Of a DNA stretch of 64,000 nt, positions 7,581 through 44,254 are shown piece by piece. Position 1 is the first letter of the stretch. Each line of letters begins with the position of its first letter. Under the pieces are notes generated by a model. That model had not been told where the DNA came from, did no database searches, and saw only the letters and a list, made by a program, of their open reading frames with translations. Both the position numbers and the translations under genes were made by a program. This DNA comes from Pseudomonas wenzhouensis (GTDB taxonomy: Bacteria > Pseudomonadota > Gammaproteobacteria > Pseudomonadales > Pseudomonadaceae): positions 4,388,101 through 4,452,100 of the forward strand of contig NZ_CP072610.1 in NCBI RefSeq assembly GCF_021029445.1, in the 5' to 3' direction.

Positions 7581-8576
7581 ATGAGTATCGAAATCCGTAA
7601 CGTCAGCAAGAACTTCAATGCGTTCAAGGCGCTGAACGAGATCAACCTGAACATCCAGAGCGGCGAACTGGTCGCCCTGCTCGGCCCGTCCGGCTGCGGC
7701 AAGACCACCCTGCTGCGCATCATCGCCGGCCTGGAAACCCCGGACAGCGGCACCATCGAGTTCCACGGCGAGGACGTCTCCAACCACGACGTGCGTGATC
7801 GCAACGTCGGCTTCGTGTTCCAGCACTACGCGCTGTTTCGCCATATGACGGTGTTCGATAACGTCGCTTTCGGCCTGCGCATGAAGCCCAAGGGTCAGCG
7901 CCCGAGCGAAGAGGTGATCAAGCGCAAGGTCCACGAACTGCTCGACCTGGTGCAGCTCGACTGGCTCGGCGATCGCTACCCGGAGCAGCTCTCCGGCGGT
8001 CAGCGCCAGCGTATCGCCCTGGCCCGCGCCCTGGCCGTGGAGCCGCGCGTACTGCTGCTCGACGAACCCTTCGGCGCGCTGGATGCCAAGGTGCGCAAGG
8101 AGCTGCGCCGCTGGCTGGCGCGCCTGCACGAGGACGTGCACCTGACCAGCGTATTCGTCACCCACGACCAGGAAGAAGCCATGGAAGTGGCCGACCGCAT
8201 CGTGGTGATGAACAAGGGCGTGATCGAGCAGATCGGTACACCGGCCGAGGTTTACGAGAATCCAGCCAGCGATTTCGTCTACCACTTCCTCGGTGATGCC
8301 AATCGCCTGTATGTGGGCAACGATCATCACGTGCTGTTCCGCCCGCACGAGGTCGACCTGTCCAGCGAACCGAGCCCGGAGCACAAGGCCGGCGAGGTGC
8401 GCGACATTCGTCTGCTCGGCGCCATCACCCGCATTACGCTGAAGGTCGAGGGCCAGGACGAGCTGATCGAGGCCGAGGTGGCCAAGGATCACCTGAGCCT
8501 GAACAACCTGGGCCGTGGCACCACGCTGTACTTCAAGCCCAAGGGCGGCAAGCCGGTGAGCAACCCGGCCGGCTGA
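7581..8576 (+). CDS. cysA: Sulfate ABC transporter ATP-binding protein CysA
   Basis: ATPase of the sulfate importer. The 331-residue product shows Walker A (GPSGCGKTT), the Q-loop FVFQHYALF, signature LSGGQRQRI, Walker B ([11 protein letters not shown]) and the switch histidine in [12 protein letters not shown]-terminal TOBE-like region follows (about residues 245-325). The start [12 protein letters not shown] at 7581 is preceded by GAGGAA and lies 2 bases after cysW. The protein ends GKPVSNPAG, normal for the family. Confidence 0.95.
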
Positions 8577-31831: not shown

Positions 31832-32761
<930 letters not shown>

Positions 32762-32765
32762 AAGC

Positions 32766-32783
32766 AAGCCGCGAACGCGGCTT
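32766..32783 (+). terminator. Terminator-like hairpin after argB
   Basis: AAGCCGCG-AA-CGCGGCTT is a perfect 8-pair stem starting 5 bases after the argB stop. Only TTCT follows, so the T-run is short. Confidence 0.65.
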
Positions 32784-32790
32784 TCTGATG

Positions 32791-33063
32791 CCCCTCTCCC
32801 TCCGGGAGAGGGTGCCCGAAGGGCGGGTGAGGGCAAAGCGGCTACCACGCATCCCTCTGACGCCCCTCTCCCTCCGGGAGACGACTGCATGGATGCAGGA
32901 GGTAGAGCGACGCAGAAAGCCAAAGCCGAGGGTGCCCGCAGGGCGGGTGAGGGTAAAGCGGCTACCACGCATCCCTCTGATGCCCCTCTCCACCGGAGAC
33001 GACTGCATGGGAGCGACGCAGGAAGCCAAAGCCGGGAGTGCCCGCAGGGCAGGTGAGGGCAAG
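32791..33063. repeat. Three tandem CCCCTCTCC...GGTGAGGG repeats with a nested insert
   Basis: Units begin at 32791, 32863 and 32983. Each has CCCCTCTCC and later GTGCCCG(C/A)AGGGC(G/A)GGTGAGGG; the first two end in AAAGCGGCTACCACGCATCC. Units two and three contain an added segment of about 40-48 bases (ACGACTGCATGG... CAAAGCCG) absent from unit one. No protein-like frame explains the region. Confidence 0.7.
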
Positions 33064-33102
33064 CGCACCCTCAACCCGCTGCGCACGGCGCACCCCTACG
33101 AG

Positions 33103-33219
33103 ATGACGCCGGCCATAGAGCAGCCTTATCGCAAGCCATCCGCATACCGACTCGAACTTGCCGCAACCCTCCTCAACCAGCACGCTCACCAGGCAACCCT
33201 GATAGAGGATCGCCCATGA
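33103..33219 (+). CDS. Possible 38-residue leader-like protein overlapping the thioesterase start
   Basis: A small frame beginning MTPAIEQPYRKPSAYRLELA and ending IEDRP. Its stop overlaps the next gene's start (ATGA at 33216-33219), as in translationally coupled pairs. The upstream ribosome binding site is weak and the frame is open back into the repeats, so it could be chance. No family is recognised. If real, it may set translation of the thioesterase gene. Confidence 0.35.
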   Translation: MTPAIEQPYRKPSAYRLELAATLLNQHAHQATLIEDRP

Positions 33220-33662
33220 GTGCCCTGCCTGAACTTAGCCAGTTCACCTTCTTCCACACCTTGCGCGTACGCTGGGCCGAAGTCGACCCGCAAAGCATCG
33301 TTTTCAACGGCCACTACCTGACCTACGCCGATGTCGCCATCACCGAATACTTTCGCGCGCTGGGTGTCGCCTACCCCGGTGACCTGGCTCGGGATGGCGG
33401 CGATTTCTTCGCCATCCGCACGCTGCTCGAATACCGCGCGCCGGCACGCTTCGACGACCTGTTGCAGGTCGGCATCCGCAGCGCACGCCTGGGCCGCTCC
33501 AGCCTGACGTTTGCCCTCGGCATCTGGCGCGACGGCGAGCTACTGACCGGCGGCGAAATCGTCTATGTTCACGCCGACGGCGCGACACGCAGCAGCGCCA
33601 CGCTGCCGCAGTGGCTCAGGGAAAAGATCGAGAGTTTCGAGAAGACTCAGCCGCAAGGCTGA
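33216..33662 (+). CDS. Hotdog-fold acyl-CoA thioesterase (YbgC/4HBT family)
   Basis: A 148-residue single-hotdog thioesterase, expected to hydrolyse acyl-CoA or 4-hydroxybenzoyl-CoA-like thioesters. The catalytic signature RVRWAEVDPQSIVFNGHYLTYADVA (from about residue 17) has the aspartate position characteristic of the 4HBT/YbgC group. TLLEYRAPARFDDLLQVGIR and GGEIVYVHAD follow the fold. GAGGA precedes the ATG. No tol-pal genes adjoin it, so it is not the tol-linked ybgC. Substrate unknown. Confidence 0.85.
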   Translation: MSALPELSQFTFFHTLRVRWAEVDPQSIVFNGHYLTYADVAITEYFRALGVAYPGDLARDGGDFFAIRTLLEYRAPARFDDLLQVGIRSARLGRSSLTFALGIWRDGELLTGGEIVYVHADGATRSSATLPQWLREKIESFEKTQPQG

Positions 33663-35799: not shown

Positions 35800-36346
35800 C
35801 CGACAGCTGGTGCACTGTCTAACGCCCGCCATTTAGATGTCGACGCGGTAGTGTTGCGAGAGCCTCACTTCGAAGCGAAGCGATAGCAGAACCAAACGCT
35901 TCGCCCCGGGGCGGGGCTCCCACACGGCCAATCGCAAAACCCACGCACCACTCCTGTAGGAGCCGCGCCTCGCGGCGAAGCGATAACAGACACACCGCAA
36001 AACCAAAAGCCCCGCCCCGGGCGGGGCTCCTACACGGCCAATCGCAAAAACCTACGCACCACTCCCGTAGGAGCCGCGCCTCGCGGCGAAGCGATGGCCG
36101 GCACACCGCAAAACCAAAGGCCCCGCCCCTGGACTCCCACACGGCAAATCGCAAAAACCTACGCACCACTCTCGTAGGAGCCGCGCCTCGCGGCGAAACA
36201 ATGGCCGGCACACCGCAAAACCAAAAGCCCCGCCCCTGGGCTCCCACACAGCAAATCGCAAAAACCTACGCATCGCTCTCGTAGGAGCCGCGCCTCGCGG
36301 CGAAGCGATGGCCGGCACACCGCAAAACGGGGCTACAGAGTCAAGC
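35800..36346. repeat. Cluster of tandem palindromic repeats after crc
   Basis: From about 35860 to 36340 there are successive units about 107-111 bases long, with starts at 35956, 36067, 36174 and 36282 plus a diverged unit before them. Each has GTAGGAGCCGCGCCTCGCGG, then CACCGCAAAACC, a GCCCCGCCCC block and AATCGCAAAAACCTACGCA. The arms are self-complementary (GGAGCCGCG against GGGGCTCC). Frames through it on both strands are repeat-driven and not genes. The region ends against the ABC ATPase stop codon. Confidence 0.85.
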
Positions 36347-37258
36347 TCAGGCCGGGGTTTTGTTACCGGCGCTGTCGAGAATATTGAAGAACACCGTCTC
36401 CAGCGAAACTGCAGGCTTGACCGTCAACAGATGGCCACCCACCTGATTCAACTGGGCGATAAAGGCCGGCAGCTCAGCCTGCAGCACCTCACATTCGAAC
36501 TCCCCCTCGCGCAGCACACGCAACGGCTGACCAATCGGCTGCGTCGCGTGATAACGAACCAGCATATCGTCAGCCCGCTCGGCAGCCAGCTCGCGCGGCG
36601 AGCGCACGGTCAGCAACTCGCCCTTGTTGATAAAGCCAAAGCGGTCGGCAATACGCTCCACATCATGCAGCACGTGGGAGGTGAAGAAGATCGCCCCACC
36701 CTGCTGCTTGAACTCGGTAAGGATATCCACCACATCCTTGCGCCCGACTGGATCAAGACCGGAAAGCGGCTCATCCAGCACCAGCAGCTTGGGCTGCACG
36801 ACCATCGCATGGGCCAGCGCCACACGCTGCACATTGCCCTTGGACAACTCACGAATGCGCCGCTTGGCATTCATATCCACGGAGAAGCGCTCCAGCCAAT
36901 GCATGCACCAGGCATCGGCATCCGCCCGCTTGATGCCATACATGGACAGGCCCATGCGCAGTATTTCCAGCGGGGTGAACTGCTCATAGAGCGCTGGCGA
37001 CTCGGGCACAAACGCCAAAGGCTGACGTGCCTCGGCACGATGAGCATCGACACCGTAGATGCTTACCTTGCCCTGATAGTCGTTGATGATATCCAGCATC
37101 ACTTTGATGGTGGTGGACTTACCGGCACCATTAGGGCCAACGAAACCGAAGACTTCGCCTTCGGTGAGAGCGAAATTCACGTTATTCAGTGCGCGAAGTT
37201 CCTTACCTTTGGCGCGAAAGGTATGACTGACGCCTTTGAACTCCAGTACAGCGCTCAA
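36347..37258 (-). CDS. ABC transporter ATPase of the pilin operon (PilH-like)
   Basis: A 303-residue ATP-binding subunit, probably working with the permease at 38096-38905. It has Walker A (GPNGAGKST), a signature variant LSKGNVQRV in place of LSGGQ, Walker B (LLVLDEPLSGLDP) and the switch histidine in FFTSHVLHD. The C-terminal 80 residues match the ABC-2 (drug/NatA-type) class. Its ATG overlaps the upstream stop (ATGA), so it is translationally coupled. In Myxococcus the ATPase PilH with PilG and PilI is needed for type IV pili; the same trio lies here after a pilin. The symbol pilH is avoided because Pseudomonas uses it for a chemotaxis regulator. Confidence 0.88.
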   Translation of the reverse strand: MSAVLEFKGVSHTFRAKGKELRALNNVNFALTEGEVFGFVGPNGAGKSTTIKVMLDIINDYQGKVSIYGVDAHRAEARQPLAFVPESPALYEQFTPLEILRMGLSMYGIKRADADAWCMHWLERFSVDMNAKRRIRELSKGNVQRVALAHAMVVQPKLLVLDEPLSGLDPVGRKDVVDILTEFKQQGGAIFFTSHVLHDVERIADRFGFINKGELLTVRSPRELAAERADDMLVRYHATQPIGQPLRVLREGEFECEVLQAELPAFIAQLNQVGGHLLTVKPAVSLETVFFNILDSAGNKTPA

Positions 37259-38094
37259 GGCTGCTCCTCCAAACCTGCAATTTTCAATTTACGTAGTTCG
37301 ATACGCCCTTCACGCAACTCATAGCCCAGCCCCAGAGGATCATCTGGAAATGCTAATAACTCACCGGAGCTTACCAATTGGGTTAGATCCCCCAGGGGGC
37401 CATGCAGAACCTCATAACGATGCTGTGCGGCACGCAAATCTACCAAGCCCTGCAGGCGAACAACCCGTCGATCCAACATCTCACGTAGTTGGAGGTCATC
37501 AGCTACATCGCGCTGTAGAGTCAGATACTCTAAAGCCAGACGCTCATCGGAGAACTTCTCAACCCTCAGCATTACGGCCAACTTGCGCAAAGCAGCAGCA
37601 TTCTCTGGCCATCGAGTCGCCGACTCCTCCAACACCCGAGCAGCTTCATCGGCATTTCGATTGAAGAAAGAAAGATTTATGCCATAGAAAAACCCGGGCA
37701 TGCCATCCCAGAAACGGCAGTCAATGGCTCGACGCAGAATATCATTCCCTTCTACCACAGCTCCGCCCCATGTAAGAAGACCGTTAGCGAGGTAATAGTT
37801 ATCCTCATGACAGGGGTTAAGCTCGGAAACAACACGCTGAGCACGAATCAAGTAATGCGAGTTAAACTGACCGTAATCCATTCCAGTTGCAGACAGACGC
37901 ATAACCTCTAAATTGGCAGCAAGAAATCGATCCCCACCATAAAGAGCTAAAAGGATTGGAGCACTAACCACAACCCGATCTGACGCCACACCGTAATTCG
38001 GCTCAGGCAGTTGCTGAGAGCGCCAGAAGACCAAAGTAGCAAATAGAGCAAAACCCAATATCGTCAAAAACAGAGAAATATAGTAGCGCCGCAT
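37255..38094 (-). CDS. Membrane-anchored helical-repeat protein of the pilin operon (PilG-like)
   Basis: A 279-residue protein with one N-terminal transmembrane helix (about residues 5-25: YISLFLTILGFALFATLVFW), and a long soluble part that looks like TPR-type helical repeats (NYYLANGLLTWGGAVVEGND, ADEAARVLEESATRWPENAA). No catalytic motif is visible. It lies between permease (1-base gap) and ATPase (ATGA overlap) genes, suggesting an accessory subunit of that transporter. Myxococcus PilG is the analogue by position and layout; sequence homology could not be tested here. The start at 38094 rather than 38133 keeps it clear of the permease gene. Base composition is lower in GC than the flanking chromosome. 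Confidence 0.75.
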   Translation of the reverse strand: MRRYYISLFLTILGFALFATLVFWRSQQLPEPNYGVASDRVVVSAPILLALYGGDRFLAANLEVMRLSATGMDYGQFNSHYLIRAQRVVSELNPCHEDNYYLANGLLTWGGAVVEGNDILRRAIDCRFWDGMPGFFYGINLSFFNRNADEAARVLEESATRWPENAAALRKLAVMLRVEKFSDERLALEYLTLQRDVADDLQLREMLDRRVVRLQGLVDLRAAQHRYEVLHGPLGDLTQLVSSGELLAFPDDPLGLGYELREGRIELRKLKIAGLEEQP

Positions 38095-38095
38095 A

Positions 38096-38905
38096 TCAAA
38101 CAAAACGCTTACGATTGAAAGCCCAGACAGCAAGCGCCATCAAAGCAAAAGCATAAATCAGACAGGACAACAACAACCACGGCCAATCTACAGGCAGAAA
38201 TTCCATCTGCCCATACAATGAAACCCCCCTAACATCTAGCGCTCCCAAATCAGGAAGAAGGTAAGCGAGTAACCCAACACCCGAACCATAACTTTCAGCG
38301 TTAGACACCACACTAGAATCCCGAGCCAGCAATTCAATAATAGCCGCAAAGGAACGTGCCACCAACATAAACCCAAAAGTGCCTACTAATACAAAACTCG
38401 ATGTCGAAGCGGTCAACGCCAGAAAGCTAGACAGAGCAGTTAACACCAGGAGATCTAAAGCGATGAAACCCATCGTAATAAGATACCCGCCCACAAGGTC
38501 TACTGGAGTAGACTGCACGTACCCCTCCCCAGCCAACCTAACCAAAACACTCAGCAAAATCGCCAAAAGACACAGGAGACCAAATATTAAAACTGTGACA
38601 GCAAAAAAACGCCCCCACAACCAAGATAGTCTTGTATAAGGATATGAAAGAGAACTAAGAAAATAACGTCGCTCAAACTCATTAGAAAGCAGCTCTTGAG
38701 TCAACATCACGACAACAAAAGGCAACAACAAACGAATGATCGAGATACCCACATCCAGAGCAACAGTTGCTGGCTGCCGCCCGGCAAACTGAGCCCCCAA
38801 CAGCACTGCTAATGACAAGAAAACAACCGAAAACAAAACAAGCCCAATATAACGAGCTCGAAAAGACAAACGAATGGTCACAAAAAAAATGGCAGGAAAC
38901 TTCAT
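38096..38905 (-). CDS. ABC-2 type permease of the pilin operon (PilI-like)
   Basis: A 269-residue integral membrane protein with about six transmembrane segments. The cytoplasmic loop ELLSNEFERRYFLSSLSYPY between helices two and three is a pattern typical of ABC-2 export permeases. It begins MKFPAIFFVTIRLSFRARYI and ends in a basic tail (FNRKRFV). The gene has markedly lower GC than pilBCD and the rest of the window, which suggests horizontal origin. It follows the exported pilin-like gene by 82 bases that include a hairpin. Cargo unknown; a role in pilus assembly is inferred from the neighbours. Confidence 0.8.
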   Translation of the reverse strand: MKFPAIFFVTIRLSFRARYIGLVLFSVVFLSLAVLLGAQFAGRQPATVALDVGISIIRLLLPFVVVMLTQELLSNEFERRYFLSSLSYPYTRLSWLWGRFFAVTVLIFGLLCLLAILLSVLVRLAGEGYVQSTPVDLVGGYLITMGFIALDLLVLTALSSFLALTASTSSFVLVGTFGFMLVARSFAAIIELLARDSSVVSNAESYGSGVGLLAYLLPDLGALDVRGVSLYGQMEFLPVDWPWLLLSCLIYAFALMALAVWAFNRKRFV

Positions 38906-38951
38906 AACAAACTACAATCCACCCAACACTCTCCACACCAAACTTAAAGCT

Positions 38952-38981
38952 GGCAGGCGAGACACATAAATCTCGCCCGCC
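38952..38981 (-). terminator. Hairpin between the second pilin gene and the ABC genes
   Basis: On the minus strand GGCGGGCGAGA pairs with TCTCGCCTGCC (11 pairs, one G-T) around an 8-base loop, 6 bases after the stop. There is no T-run, so it looks like partial termination or 3'-end protection that would favour pilin over transporter expression (inference). Confidence 0.6.
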
Positions 38982-38987
38982 AATACA

Positions 38988-39440
38988 TTACGGGTTAAGC
39001 AGCATAACAGTAGAGTTAGTTTCGGCGCCCGCTGCAGTGCAAGTATTACCACCAGGATACTGAGTATTAACAGTACCCAAGATAGTAGTTGCAGAAGGCA
39101 TAGCAGGACCTACCACATCTTCTAGAGCACAGTCTGGATCTGCCGCACCCACAGTGCACGACACTATATGCTCTGGAATACCATCAGCCGGGACGGCAGC
39201 AACAGTCTTAACCGGCACAGAGCGAGTAGTCACCTTGCCACCAGTATGGCACGCAGATAGAGCAACCGCATTGGCATTACACGTAACGCCAGCATGAACA
39301 TTATTGCTCAAGTTAATACGTACGTTTTCATTCAGCGGAGCACAATCATCCATGCTAACACTGCCTGACTGGGTCAACTGAACAGCAGAGGCCATACCGG
39401 ACACCATCAGCCCCGCGAGAACAAGAGTAATCTTTTTCAT
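38988..39440 (-). CDS. Exported cysteine-rich protein, candidate PilA-C-type pilin partner
   Basis: A 150-residue protein directly after the short pilin. A standard Sec signal peptide (MKKITLVLAGLMVSGMASA) replaces the prepilin leader. The mature part of about 131 residues has six cysteines (MDDCAP, VTCNAN, SACHTG, VSCTVG, PDCALE, NTCTAA), enough for three disulfides. It ends STVMLLNP. I recognise no family firmly. Gene order and size recall PilA-C of Geobacter, which supplies the globular half of a split pilin. The start at 39440 is chosen because GGTGAT lies 4 bases upstream; an in-frame ATG at 39458 overlaps the pilin stop (TAATG). Low GC, as for the permease gene. Confidence 0.75.
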   Translation of the reverse strand: MKKITLVLAGLMVSGMASAVQLTQSGSVSMDDCAPLNENVRINLSNNVHAGVTCNANAVALSACHTGGKVTTRSVPVKTVAAVPADGIPEHIVSCTVGAADPDCALEDVVGPAMPSATTILGTVNTQYPGGNTCTAAGAETNSTVMLLNP

Positions 39441-39457
39441 ATTCATCACCCAGACCA

Positions 39458-39643
39458 TTAGCGCAGAGAAGAAATAATAGATGTAACACCGTTCTTCACA
39501 TCAGCAACCGCCGAAGTATCGTTCGCTTTTTGACGATAATCATTAAACTGAGGAATGGCGATAGCAGCCAGAATACCGATGATCGCGATCACGATCATCA
39601 GCTCGATCAGGGTAAAACCCTTTTGCTTCTTAAGAGACTTCAT
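39458..39643 (-). CDS. pilA: Short type IV pilin (N-terminal helix only, PilA-N-like)
   Basis: A 61-residue prepilin. The basic leader MKSLKKQKG is followed by the prepilin peptidase site G/F and the invariant Glu5 ([20 protein letters not shown]). The mature protein is only 52 residues, whereas usual Pseudomonas pilins have about 140. It stops after the N-terminal helix and has no beta-sheet domain or D-loop cysteines. [11 protein letters not shown] resembles IPQFSAYRVKA of Geobacter PilA, a split pilin. The AGGAG 8 bases before the ATG and the sigma-54 promoter upstream show it is a live gene. It sits divergent from pilB, where major pilin normally lies. Confidence 0.9.
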
Positions 39644-39689: not shown

Positions 39690-39705
39690 AGCAGATAGCG
39701 TGCCA
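39690..39705 (-). promoter_or_regulatory. Sigma-54 promoter of the short pilin operon
   Basis: The minus strand reads TGGCAC-GCTAT-CTGCT, matching the -24/-12 consensus TGGCAC-N5-TTGCW except for one base in the -12 part. The predicted start lies about 35 bases before the ATG. PilS/PilR is the known activator of pilA in Pseudomonas. Upstream GTGTCAGTTGGTGAC (around 39823-39837) may hold PilR sites (inference). Confidence 0.75.
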
Positions 39706-39916: not shown

Positions 39917-41617
39917 ATGAATGACACCATGATCGCAACCGGCCTGGCCCGGCAACTCGTCAACGCCGAATTGCTCGACGAGCGCGCCGCCAGCAATGCT
40001 CAGGCACAGGCTGCCCGCAACAAGATCCCCCTGGTGTCATACCTGGTACAGAACAAGCTGGTCGCTAGCCGTGCACTGGCGGAAGTAGCGGCAGAACAAT
40101 TCGGTGTCCCGTATTTCGACCTGACTGCCATCGACAAGGACAGCCAACCCCGGGATGTACTGAGCGAAAAGCTCTGCCGACAACACCGGGTATTGCCGCT
40201 CTATCGCCGGGGAAACAAACTGTTTATTGCACTGTCCGACCCGACTAACCACCAGGCGCTGACCGATGTGCAATTCAGCGCCGGACTGAGCACAGAAGCC
40301 CTGCTGGTCGAAGATGACAAACTGGGCGATGCCTTGGAGCGTTTTTTCGATACAGGCAATACGGGCATGGAGGATTTAGCCGATGTTGACCTGGACGGCC
40401 TGGATGTGGAGGCCGTCACCGATGACAAGGACGATGCCGTCTCTGGTGGCGATGCCGACGATGCACCGGTAGTGCGTTTTATTAACAAGATGCTGCTGGA
40501 TGCGATCAAGGGCGGCTCTTCCGATCTGCACTTCGAGCCGTACGAAAAAACCTACCGCGTGCGCTTTCGTACCGACGGCATGCTGCATGAGGTCGCGCGC
40601 CCGCCCATCCAGTTGGCCAGCCGCCTTTCCGCTCGTCTCAAGGTCATGGCGCAGCTGGATATCTCCGAGCGGCGCAAGCCACAGGATGGCCGCATCAAGA
40701 TGAAGGTTTCGAAAAACAAGGCCATCGACTTTCGCGTCAACACCCTGCCCACCTTGTGGGGTGAGAAGATCGTGATGCGGATTCTCGACCCCACCAGCGC
40801 ACAAATGGGCATCGATGCGCTTGGTTATGAGGAGGAGCAGAAGGAGCTGTATATGACCGCCCTGAAGCAGCCTCAGGGCATGATCCTGGTGACCGGCCCC
40901 ACCGGCTCAGGCAAAACCGTATCGCTGTATACCGGCCTGAATATCCTCAATACTACGGACATCAATATTTCCACGGCAGAAGACCCGGTGGAAATCAACC
41001 TGGAAGGTATTAACCAGGTCAATGTCAACCCGAAGCACGGCATGGACTTCGCCCAGGCGCTGCGCGCTTTCCTGCGTCAGGATCCGGACGTGATCATGGT
41101 CGGCGAGATTCGTGACCTGGAAACCGCCGAGATTGCCATCAAGGCTGCGCAAACCGGACATATGGTGATGTCCACCCTGCACACCAACAGCGCCGCCGAA
41201 ACGCTGACCCGCCTGCGCAATATGGGTGTGCCGGCCTTCAATATCGCCACATCGGTCAACCTGATCATCGCCCAGCGCCTGGCGCGCAAACTCTGCAGTT
41301 GCAAGAAGGTCGTTGAGCTGCCGCGCGAGGCTCTGCTGAAAGAGGGCTTCCCGGAAAGCCAGATTGGCAGCTTCAAACTTTACGCCCCCAATGGCTGCGA
41401 TAATTGCAAAGGCGGCTATAAAGGAAGGGTGGGGATTTATGAAGTAGTTAAAATCACGCCTGCCCTGCAACGCATTATCATGGAGGAAGGCAACTCCATT
41501 GAAATTGCCGCCCAGGCCAGGGCCGACGGCTTCAATGACCTCCGTACTTCCGGCCTGCTCAAGGCGATGCAGGGCATCACCAGCCTGGAAGAAGTCAACC
41601 GTGTGACCAAGGATTAA
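39917..41617 (+). CDS. pilB: Type IV pilus assembly ATPase PilB
   Basis: Hexameric secretion-type ATPase that drives pilus extension. The 566-residue product has an N-terminal MshEN-like domain (about 1-150), Walker A (GPTGSGKTVSLY), the Asp box EDPVEINLEG, Walker B (DPDVIMVGEIRD), the His box (GHMVMSTLHTNSA), and a four-cysteine zinc site (CSCKK and CDNCKGG). It is the first gene of pilBCD, with 3-base gaps. Divergent from the short pilin gene. The ATG at 39917 is followed by an in-frame ATG at 39929. Confidence 0.96.
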   Translation: MNDTMIATGLARQLVNAELLDERAASNAQAQAARNKIPLVSYLVQNKLVASRALAEVAAEQFGVPYFDLTAIDKDSQPRDVLSEKLCRQHRVLPLYRRGNKLFIALSDPTNHQALTDVQFSAGLSTEALLVEDDKLGDALERFFDTGNTGMEDLADVDLDGLDVEAVTDDKDDAVSGGDADDAPVVRFINKMLLDAIKGGSSDLHFEPYEKTYRVRFRTDGMLHEVARPPIQLASRLSARLKVMAQLDISERRKPQDGRIKMKVSKNKAIDFRVNTLPTLWGEKIVMRILDPTSAQMGIDALGYEEEQKELYMTALKQPQGMILVTGPTGSGKTVSLYTGLNILNTTDINISTAEDPVEINLEGINQVNVNPKHGMDFAQALRAFLRQDPDVIMVGEIRDLETAEIAIKAAQTGHMVMSTLHTNSAAETLTRLRNMGVPAFNIATSVNLIIAQRLARKLCSCKKVVELPREALLKEGFPESQIGSFKLYAPNGCDNCKGGYKGRVGIYEVVKITPALQRIIMEEGNSIEIAAQARADGFNDLRTSGLLKAMQGITSLEEVNRVTKD

Positions 41618-41620
41618 TCC

Positions 41621-42841
41621 ATGGCGGAAAAAGCACTGAAAACCAGCGTATTCGCCTGGGAAGGTACCGATCGTAAAGGCGGCAAGGTCAAGGGCGAGAT
41701 TTCCGGGCAATCCCCCGCTTTGGTAAAGGCCCAACTGCGCAAGCAGGGCATCAACCCGCTCAAGGTACGTAAAAAGGCCGTTTCGCTGTTCAGCGCGGGC
41801 AAAAAGATCAAGCCGATGGACATCGCCTTGTTCACCCGCCAGATGGCCACCATGATGAAGGCAGGCGTACCGCTGCTGCAGTCGTTCGACATCATCGCCG
41901 AAGGCTTCGACAACCCGAACATGCGCAAGCTGATCGACGAGGTCAAACAGGAAGTCGCTGCCGGTAACAGCTTTGCCTCATCCTTGCGCAAGAAGCCGAT
42001 GTACTTCGACGACCTGTATTGCAACCTGGTCGACTCAGGCGAGCAGTCCGGCGCGCTGGAAACCCTGCTGGACCGAATTGCCACCTACAAGGAAAAGACC
42101 GAATCCCTCAAGGCCAAGATCAAGAAGGCCATGACCTATCCGATCGCGGTCATCGTGGTGGCGGTGATCGTGACCGCCATTCTGCTGATCAAGGTAGTGC
42201 CACAATTCGAAGCAGTTTTCCAAGGCTTTGGTGCTCAACTGCCGGCGTTTACGCAAGTAGTTGTAAACCTCTCCCGAGGCTTGCAGGAATGGTGGTACGT
42301 CGTGCTGGGGGTGATGTTCATTGCGTCCTACACCTTTACCCAAGCCTATAAGCGTTCAGAGAAATTCCGTGATTCACTGGACAGGGCTCTACTAAAAGCG
42401 CCTATTGTTGGTGATATTTTGTACAAAGCAGTGGTAGCCCGTTTCGCCCGTACCCTGGCCACCACCTTTGCAGCGGGTGTTCCACTGGTGGATGCGCTCG
42501 ACTCCGTGGCAGGCGCAACCGGCAATGTGGTTTTCCGCAACGCCGTGCATAAAATCAAAGTCGATGTTTCGTCCGGTATGCAGCTCAACTTCTCCATGCG
42601 CAGTACGGGTATTTTCCCCACCATGGCCGTGCAGATGACCGCCATTGGCGAAGAGGCCGGCTCCCTGGACGAAATGCTTGATAAAACCGCCAGTTATTAC
42701 GAAGAAGAAGTAGACAATGCCGTGGACAACCTGACCACGCTGATGGAGCCGCTGATCATGGCCGTGCTGGGTGTGTTGGTCGGTGGCCTTATCATTGCGA
42801 TGTATCTGCCTATCTTCCAGCTTGGTGCGGTGGTCGGCTAA
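41621..42841 (+). CDS. pilC: Type IV pilus inner-membrane platform protein PilC
   Basis: Polytopic platform on which PilB and PilT act. The 406-residue protein has the GspF/PilC duplicated layout: DIALFTRQMATMMKAGVPLL (about 66-85), a hydrophobic segment (about 170-190), a second repeat (FARTLATTFAAGVPLVDALD, about 270-290) and a C-terminal helix (MAVLGVLVGGLIIAMYLPIF). Stop to pilD gap is 3 bases. Length and motifs are standard, so nothing in it explains the unusual pilin. Confidence 0.96.
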   Translation: MAEKALKTSVFAWEGTDRKGGKVKGEISGQSPALVKAQLRKQGINPLKVRKKAVSLFSAGKKIKPMDIALFTRQMATMMKAGVPLLQSFDIIAEGFDNPNMRKLIDEVKQEVAAGNSFASSLRKKPMYFDDLYCNLVDSGEQSGALETLLDRIATYKEKTESLKAKIKKAMTYPIAVIVVAVIVTAILLIKVVPQFEAVFQGFGAQLPAFTQVVVNLSRGLQEWWYVVLGVMFIASYTFTQAYKRSEKFRDSLDRALLKAPIVGDILYKAVVARFARTLATTFAAGVPLVDALDSVAGATGNVVFRNAVHKIKVDVSSGMQLNFSMRSTGIFPTMAVQMTAIGEEAGSLDEMLDKTASYYEEEVDNAVDNLTTLMEPLIMAVLGVLVGGLIIAMYLPIFQLGAVVG

Positions 42842-42844
42842 CCC

Positions 42845-43711
42845 ATGGTGTTCGAATTTCTGGCCGACAATCTGTCGGCCTTTGTTTTTATCTGTACCCT
42901 TTTCGGCCTGTTGATTGGCAGCTTCCTCAATGTGGTGGTTTACCGCCTGCCGCTGATGCTGCAGCGCGACTGGCAGAGCCAGGCGCGTGAAGTGCTGGAA
43001 TTGCCCCCAGCCCCACAGGCAGAAACCTTCAACCTGTTGCTACCCAATTCTGCGTGTCCTGGCTGCGGTCACGAGATACGCCCCTGGGAGAATATCCCGG
43101 TACTCAGCTACCTGTTCCTGCGCGGTCAGTGCTCGAACTGTAAAACGCCAATCAGCAAGCGCTACCCCCTCGTCGAACTGGCCTGCGGGCTGCTTTCCGG
43201 CTACATCGCCTGGCATTTCGGTTTCACCTGGCAGGCCGGCGCAATGCTGCTTCTGGCCTGGGGGCTGCTGGCGATGAGCCTGATCGATACTGATCACCAG
43301 CTTCTACCTGACGTGCTGGTGCTGCCGCTTTTGTGGCTGGGTTTGATCGTCAATTACTTCGGGCTGTTCACCCGCCTGGAAGATGCTCTGTGGGGCGCGA
43401 TTGCCGGTTACCTGAGCCTATGGTCGGTGTACTGGCTGTTCAAGCTGATCACCGGCAAGGAAGGCATGGGCTACGGTGACTTCAAGCTGCTGGCCATGCT
43501 TGGCGCCTGGGGGGGCTGGCAGATTTTGCCGCTGACCATTCTGCTGTCGTCGCTGGTCGGCGCTGTACTGGGGGTGATTCTGCTGCGGATACGCGGTAGC
43601 GACTCCAGCACACCAATGCCCTTTGGCCCTTACCTGGCTATTGCCGGGTGGGTCGCGCTGCTGTGGGGCGATGTGATTACCGGCAGCTATCTGAAGTTCG
43701 CCGGCTTCTGA
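42845..43711 (+). CDS. pilD: Prepilin peptidase/N-methyltransferase PilD
   Basis: Inner-membrane aspartyl protease that cleaves prepilin leaders after glycine and N-methylates the new first residue; also serves type II secretion. The 288-residue protein has the cytoplasmic four-cysteine domain (CPGCGHEIRPWENIPVLSYL and CSNCKTPISKRYP), catalytic aspartates in LIDTDHQLLPD and GYGDFKLLAMLGAWGG, and about eight transmembrane segments. It should process the adjacent short pilin, whose G/FTLIE site is canonical. A repeat array follows before coaE. Confidence 0.96.
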   Translation: MVFEFLADNLSAFVFICTLFGLLIGSFLNVVVYRLPLMLQRDWQSQAREVLELPPAPQAETFNLLLPNSACPGCGHEIRPWENIPVLSYLFLRGQCSNCKTPISKRYPLVELACGLLSGYIAWHFGFTWQAGAMLLLAWGLLAMSLIDTDHQLLPDVLVLPLLWLGLIVNYFGLFTRLEDALWGAIAGYLSLWSVYWLFKLITGKEGMGYGDFKLLAMLGAWGGWQILPLTILLSSLVGAVLGVILLRIRGSDSSTPMPFGPYLAIAGWVALLWGDVITGSYLKFAGF

Positions 43712-44254
43712 TCCACACAAACACTATCGGCAACCCAGACTGTAGGTACCCCGCCCTGGAGCGAAACTTTTGGGTTTGCACTGGCCTTGCTACCGATTCG
43801 CGGCGGGGCGCCGCTCCTACAGCTACGCAACAATTATCGCCGGCGCCGAACCTGCACAGTAGGAGCCCCGCCCCGGGGCGAAGCTTTGGTTTTGCGCTGG
43901 CCTTACTATCGATTCGCGGCGGGGCGCCGCTCCTACAGCTACGCAGCAATTATCGCCGGCGCCGAACCTGCACGGTAGGAGCCCCGCCCCGGGGCGAAGC
44001 TTTTGGGGGTGCGCTGGCCTTGCTACCGATTCGCGGCGGGGCGCCGCTCCTACAGCTACGCAACAATTATCGCCGGCGCCGAACCTGCACGGTAGGAGCC
44101 CCGCCACGGGGCGAAGCTTTTGGGTTTGCGCTGGCCTTGCTATCGATTCGCGGCGGGGCGCGGCTACAGGTAGGTGCACAGCACGGACGTGGTCGCATCA
44201 CATTACAATCCCCCCTACAATCGCGCCCTTGAGCAATAACGAGGCGGCATTGGC
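43712..44254. repeat. Four tandem palindromic repeats of about 117 bases
   Basis: Units start at 43742, 43859, 43975 and 44092, with the last truncated near 44173. Each has GTAGGAGCCCCGCCCCGGGG, GCGAAGCTTTTGG, CGCTGGCCTTGCTA, ATTCGCGGCGGGGCGCCGCT and a spacer AACAATTATCGCCGGCGCCG. Units are almost identical, including the spacers, so amplification is recent. Overlapping frames seen here are repeat-driven. The remaining bases to 44254 lead into coaE. Confidence 0.88.

Follow-up and report, generated by a model that had tools for sequence, protein, structure and literature searches.

The window analysed here is a 64,000-nucleotide stretch of Pseudomonas wenzhouensis DNA (contig NZ_CP072610.1, positions 4,388,101 to 4,452,100 of the forward strand), part of a complete single-contig genome of 4,452,100 bases. 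At the pilA position it carries a five-gene minus-strand operon that diverges from pilB, pilC and pilD (39917-43711). The operon encodes a short prepilin of 61 amino acids (aa), which we call PilA-N (39458..39643), a PilA-C-like exported globular subunit (38988..39446), an ABC-2 type permease (38096..38905; 269 aa), a membrane-anchored accessory protein resembling tetratricopeptide repeat (TPR) proteins (37255..38094) and an ABC transporter ATPase (36347..37258; 303 aa). An original prediction, made from the sequence of the window, had described such an operon divergent from pilBCD, and all five open reading frames (ORFs) are present as it described them. The close spacing that it reported for the last three genes also holds: a start of the TPR protein at ATG 38094 leaves 1 base between its gene and the permease gene, a start at an upstream TTG (38133) makes the two overlap, and the TPR and ATPase genes overlap by 4 bases. 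PilA-C has 156 aa from its first possible start (39458) and 152 aa, the length of the database copy P0001, from a likelier ATG (39446), which lies 11 bases from the PilA-N stop in a different frame.

PilA-N carries a GFTLIE cleavage motif and matches the Pfam N_methyl family, with 52 residues following the cleavage site, in agreement with the predicted prepilin of N-terminal helix only. Its best matches in the PDB are Geobacter PilA-N chains, listed as 'Geopilin domain 1' (9egp_A, 1.1e-17; 7tgg_A, 2.2e-16), and full-length pilins rank behind them, from 1.9e-10. The mature protein is exactly 52 residues long in 63/63 entries (62 loci of the survey described below and the window), with residues 1-9 invariant; it is a prepilin truncated after its N-terminal helix, as in a Geobacter-type split pilin. 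Conductive, aromatic-based e-pili are built from a short pilin rich in aromatic residues. PilA-N does not have this composition: the 52 residues include three F, W, Y or H in 48/63 entries and four in 15/63. Between PilA-C and the permease, 13 of the 67 surveyed loci (L008, L009, L013, L014, L016, L018, L019, L028, L041, L049, L051, L054 and L059) encode an additional short prepilin of 52-54 residues after cleavage, which may be a minor pilin or a further core subunit; the window does not.

The second gene was predicted to encode an exported protein with six cysteines, and six cysteines do follow an apparent signal peptide in PilA-C (as read from the sequence, with no predictor run). No Pfam or NCBIfam family matches it, so that genome annotation in carrier species may overlook half of the major pilin. 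Database searches gave 52 relatives at 44-100% identity; the neighbourhood survey revealed a far more variable family than these indicated, with a mean column identity of 23% in the family alignment (A3, 58 members) and a majority consensus around LSxNV, a CHxxGS region and GGxV. Whole PilA-C ORFs (n=63) contain six cysteines in 36 cases, seven in 11, two in nine, four in four and eight in three. Searches of the PDB with the single sequence and with the A1 profile returned nothing below E 0.12. With the A3 profile, the Geobacter 'Geopilin domain 2' protein 9egp_B was matched at E=1.8e-5. The mature part scores 14.0 bits against 9egp_B with A3 and 12.0 bits with the mature-only profile A4, compared with maxima of 9.9 and 9.3 bits among 500 shuffles; an hhalign alignment of this segment has P 0.023. 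A signal-peptide artefact was considered for the 9egp_B match, and by this shuffle control the mature part has a share in it. When the AlphaFold model of PilA-C was aligned with known structures, the closest was a PilA-C chain from another Geobacter species whose pilus has been solved. The profile and the predicted fold alike indicate kinship with Geobacter PilA-C, and the gene next to PilA-N encodes the exported beta-rich partner of a Geobacter-type split pilin. In three loci a second PilA-C-like gene precedes the permease (L023:4628-5065, L048:4706-5077 and G015:C1:245471-245863).

The surroundings of the operon are those of a type IV pilus locus. On the plus strand lie the extension ATPase gene pilB (39917..41617; NCBIfam type_IV_pilB, 848 bits, over cut-off), pilC for the inner-membrane platform protein (41621..42841; Pfam T2SSF) and pilD for the prepilin peptidase (42845..43711; Pfam A24_N_bact and Peptidase_A24). 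A sigma-54-like promoter site, TGGCACGCTATCTGC, was located on the minus strand at 39691..39705 using the general -24/-12 consensus, and begins 86 nt upstream of the cleavage-site Gly codon. Similar sites stand upstream of 46/66 split-pilin entries and 37/59 canonical full-length pilA loci, versus 38/1320 random stretches of the same loci, where the script tested alternative prepilin motifs at each locus and slightly favours matches in both groups. Given its pilA-like position and pilA-like promoter site, the operon seems to stand in for pilA, with regulation of the pilA type.

The original prediction would be refuted by a complete canonical major pilin elsewhere that alone builds the pili. 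The search of the complete genome gave no further candidate for a major pilin; any surface type IV pilus would therefore have to be built from the split pilin. The genome encodes six N_methyl prepilins, PilA-N and five clustered at 1.00-1.01 Mb, one of which was translated and, with a PilY1-like neighbour, reads to us like PilE. Pfam Pilin (PF00114) has no match in this genome, a weak test as it matches only 1/14 control genomes. Four PilT-family proteins score over cut-off, two of them (G000:C1:2233205-2234224 and 32369-33379) in addition to an adjacent pair at 4.22 Mb. As a canonical control we read 60 of the 100 pilB loci over cut-off in relatives lacking the ABC-TPR genes. Full-length pilins only were found in 57, and the remaining three held a 114-residue pilin with an edge fragment, a fragment cut by the contig end, and no pilin. 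Where a complete canonical PilA was present (58 regions), it is a single chain of 105-185 mature residues.

To see whether the gene set occurs only once, as the original prediction had proposed to check, its neighbourhoods were surveyed, and it recurs widely, over several classes. The TPR profile A2 led to 53 named loci in Pseudomonas, Stutzerimonas, Thauera, Thiohalophilus, Deefgea, Lampropedia, Mariprofundus and others; with 14 of 44 strong Pseudomonadaceae matches these make up 67 loci, in all of which the presence of the TPR gene is by construction. A short prepilin, then a small exported protein, then a permease precede the TPR gene in 67/67, and the order permease-TPR-ATPase follows the pilin genes in 65/67. 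A pilB-like gene is on the opposite strand in 48 loci, on the same strand in four and was not found within the locus in 15. The 67 include two duplicates (L102 of L042, L103 of L047) and two loci, L044 and L101, for which the signal-peptide filter of the script was relaxed and which match PilA-C by sequence; 30 short loci (L060-L089), whose stretches often end before the prepilin, were left out. Across 398 Pseudomonadaceae genomes the TPR profile matches 47, of which 44 are strong and three, at 5.7e-4 to 0.001 across some 57 residues, were set aside. The PilA-C profile has matches in 44 of the 398, 43 of them in common with the TPR profile, a result that is partly by construction as A3 includes members from some of these genomes; in G102, PilA-C is present by position (L093) and falls below the profile threshold. 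One genome, Thauera sp. Sel9, carries two operon copies (L037 and L039) that differ in PilA-N tail and PilA-C type.

The remaining three genes encode the putative ABC-TPR module. The ATPase matches Pfam ABC_tran at 1.3e-27, the permease matches ABC2_membrane_2 weakly (E=0.0048, below cut-off), and the accessory protein gives weak Pfam TPR matches. From ATG 38094 the latter has 279 aa, the length of P0053, with an N-terminal hydrophobic segment visible in its sequence; it has 927 relatives at E<=0.001 (the best 120 of 927 listed), and its profile, the one of the three searched in this way, found no informative relative by sequence among solved structures. The permease is present in 67/67 loci and the ATPase in 65/67, being undetected within the stretch fetched in L039 and L048. 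An ATPase, a permease and an accessory protein are thus encoded together with the major pilin, as in the PilGHI system of Myxococcus. The predicted label 'PilGHI-type' draws on gene content and on the divergent relatives beside full-length pilins described next; it is weaker than claimed, and kinship with the Myxococcus proteins themselves is putative.

In a search across the phylum, the TPR profile matches 19/398 genomes, and the 14 outside Pseudomonadaceae all belong to a Mariprofundaceae-like family (f39). The three strong matches in f39 carry the split pilin. Of its 11 weak matches nine were read (G497 and G588 were left out), and 8/9 regions hold full-length prepilins of 118-178 residues in the stretch, with the order TPR-ATPase-permease in 4/9 (permease matches of only 15-35 bits) and the ATPase first in 1/9. 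In L187, L188, L189 and L193, tandem full-length pilins adjoin the divergent module. Such modules beside full-length pilins suggest that the ABC module predates the pilin split or is independent of it, and that it serves the globular domain. The full-length Mariprofundaceae-like pilins were also considered as a fused form of PilA-N plus PilA-C. With hhalign they gave P 0.025, where canonical pilins gave 0.14 (13 versus 62 pilins, p 0.028 in a one-sided rank test), but a canonical pilin (L139) had the highest score of all; a resemblance of their C-terminal domains to PilA-C is only suggestive.

We then compared the variation of the two chains across 63 entries, the window and 62 loci. Near or exact duplicates (L098, L102 and L103) were left out, as were L033 and L056, whose prepilins, seen by eye, were missed by the motif filter of the script. 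For L026, L040 and L101 the PilA-C ORFs kept their upstream extensions untrimmed, and for L050 a low-scoring PilB was used that may be another ATPase. Distances between PilA-N tails (residues 25-52) correlate with those between PilA-C sequences at 0.69-0.74. Among the 48 entries that include a pilB-like gene, the tail correlates with PilA-C at 0.72 versus 0.09 with PilB. Partial correlations between tail and PilA-C, controlled for TPR, permease, ATPase or PilB, range from 0.58 to 0.72, and from 0.61 to 0.71 when the class with two cysteines is removed, with 0/999 permutations reaching the observed value in each of eight tests. The permease, encoded on the other side of PilA-C, correlates with it at 0.44, or 0.29 without the two-cysteine class.

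Altogether, we consider that the operon has replaced pilA and specifies a type IV pilus whose major subunit consists of two chains, in the manner of Geobacter, with probable loading or folding by the ABC-TPR module; we give this reading a probability of about 0.82. Computation lends good support to the presence in Pseudomonas of a Geobacter-like two-chain pilin and its conserved ABC-TPR partner, namely through the gene set and its conservation, the pilin search in the genome itself, the family and fold match of PilA-C and the co-variation of the chains. We infer that the two chains pair physically and that both are present in a pilus located on the cell surface. PilA-N, a 52-residue helix, would be cut by PilD and form the filament core. 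PilA-C would be exported separately by Sec, cut by signal peptidase I and probably oxidised in the periplasm to form disulfides, then dock on the outer end of the PilA-N helix and cover the filament surface, as in Geobacter. A single inner-membrane complex is probably made up of the permease, the ATPase and the TPR protein, with the TPR domain in the periplasm; using ATP, it would fold PilA-C or place it on PilA-N ahead of filament assembly by PilB and PilC. As PilA-C apparently has a Sec-type signal, the complex would not be needed for crossing of the membrane if that signal works as usual, and the topology, as judged from the sequence, makes folding or loading of PilA-C at the expense of ATP a likelier task than its transport.

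Several observations weigh against this interpretation. The signal peptide supplies part of the 9egp_B score, and the mature-only A4 profile misses 9egp_B in the PDB search; Foldseek against the PDB gave no match at E<=0.001. The 44 genomes with strong TPR matches have 6 to 22 N_methyl matches each, unsorted (six in G000 and G324), and in Thiohalophilus (L036) a full-length prepilin of 117 mature residues (7835-8239) lies after the split-pilin operon and before pilB. G124 encodes PilA-N and PilA-C with no ABC module in the 9 kb read, the one clear exception to their association. Over all entries, correlations of 0.58-0.61 also link the PilA-N tail to the TPR protein, permease and ATPase, and they drop to 0.22-0.34 once the two-cysteine class is removed. 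Part of the co-variation of the two pilin chains may come from the adjacency of their genes and from their being transferred together. The Thiohalophilus locus, the prepilins of other carriers and the correlations with the ABC genes concern material outside the window's own genome, and they leave our estimate unchanged.

Among the alternatives, it is unlikely, if the least so, that the pilin is split and the ABC-TPR module is unrelated to it, for instance exporting another substrate, with merely a common promoter. G124 fits this view, as do the divergent modules beside full-length pilins, which indicate that splitting is not what requires the module. The locus in question, L195 (G124:C1:1579500-1588500), has a changed PilA-N motif (FTLTELM) and divergent PilB and PilC, and may be drifting. 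Against an unrelated module stand the close co-occurrence across the 398 Pseudomonadaceae genomes, the nearly constant gene order behind the pilin genes, the 60 pilB neighbourhoods of module-less relatives without an intact short pilin, and the Myxococcus pilGHI mutants, said to be without pilins and pili (PMC3724824).

It is rather improbable that PilA-C is a periplasmic or inner-membrane chaperone outside the filament and that PilA-N alone makes thin pili. Geobacter PilA-C has been reported to form an inner-membrane trimer that acts as a pilin chaperone, in a paper in which the heterodimer model is disputed (PMC8844916), and a 6.5 nm filament with the second protein has been called an artefact (PMC9207759). 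However, the closest structural match of PilA-C is a chain of a solved pilus, its high variability around a short conserved core is in our judgement more like that of a surface domain, and three or four F, W, Y or H per 52 residues fit poorly with the aromatic-based model of pilus conductivity (PMC5174107). A periplasmic, secretion-type pseudopilus, a model once proposed for Geobacter PilA-N/PilA-C (PMC8844916), has a still smaller chance of describing the filament, as the operon sits beside pilBCD with a pilA-like promoter site in a genome with several PilT-family proteins and five further prepilins in one cluster. Finally, the adjacency of the two genes in different frames could recall a full-length pilA broken by a frameshift, a pseudogene, which we dismiss: PilA-C has its own start and signal peptide, the length of PilA-N is fixed, and both halves are open in 67/67 loci over several classes.

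A broader and quite tentative scenario is that two-chain pili recur in Proteobacteria with a fixed 52-residue core and a swappable, separately secreted, disulfide-bonded coat loaded by a dedicated ABC-TPR machine at the expense of ATP; loci with a second prepilin might then build mixed filaments, and the coat cassette might move between genera with the matching core tail. It is contested in the literature whether the PilA-C of Geobacter makes up half of the pilus or acts only as a chaperone (PMC8844916, PMC9207759), and the split, aromatic-poor short pilins of Pseudomonas and Stutzerimonas relatives would make this dispute testable in easily handled bacteria, in our case in a genome with no other major-pilin candidate. 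The ABC-TPR link also gives the little-understood PilGHI transporter of Myxococcus a candidate substrate, the globular pilin domain.

Tandem repeats were noted at both ends of the region. Immediately 3' of the ATPase gene (35860-36344) there are 4-5 copies of about 107 bp, holding GC-rich palindromic segments that we read as similar to repetitive extragenic palindromic (REP) elements, and immediately after pilD (43732-44165) a second array has four copies at a spacing of 116-117 bp.

The original prediction held that this arrangement had not been described in Pseudomonas. Among the matches listed in a search of open-licence literature, none describes the five-gene operon in this genus, and to this extent the claim stands, if more weakly than made. 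Pseudomonas was among the groups listed in 2016 as having truncated pilins, in a paper arguing for gene fission in Geobacter (PMC5174107), whose text has no word beginning with 'ABC' or 'cysteine', and a paper on Pseudomonas stutzeri S116 says that databases yielded no truncated pilA (PMC9118636). PilGHI homologues beyond Myxococcus were found in almost all bacteria of one study, including cases among Geobacter relatives (PMC6060248), so that the pairing of transporter and split pilin may already be visible in that group. As pilG, pilH and pilI are used for chemotaxis-type twitching proteins (PMC9118636), these names are unsuited to the ABC-TPR module.

With canonical Pseudomonas PilA the system shares its place next to pilB, a similar promoter site and the same N-terminal motif, whereas canonical PilA is one chain and the genomes sampled for it have no TPR profile match. 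The likeness to Myxococcus xanthus is one of gene content: its pilAGHI operon combines ATPase, permease and accessory protein with the major pilin in the order accessory-ATPase-permease (PMC3546991), an order shared by 4/9 weak-match regions of the Mariprofundaceae-like family, in contrast to the permease-TPR-ATPase order here, and Myxococcus PilA is one chain of 208 residues (PMC11046646). The Geobacter PilA-N/PilA-C filaments (7tgg, 9egp; PMC12954529, PMC11046646) differ in that, in the 97 residues of 9egp_B listed, no cysteine follows the signal peptide, compared with six in most PilA-C proteins here; here, moreover, PilA-N is aromatic-poor, the pilin genes are divergent from pilBCD in most loci that include pilB, and a second short prepilin appears in some loci. 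In both systems the pilin consists of the helix only and the gene after it encodes the exported beta-rich subunit separately, with the first chain here matching Geobacter by sequence and the second by profile and fold.

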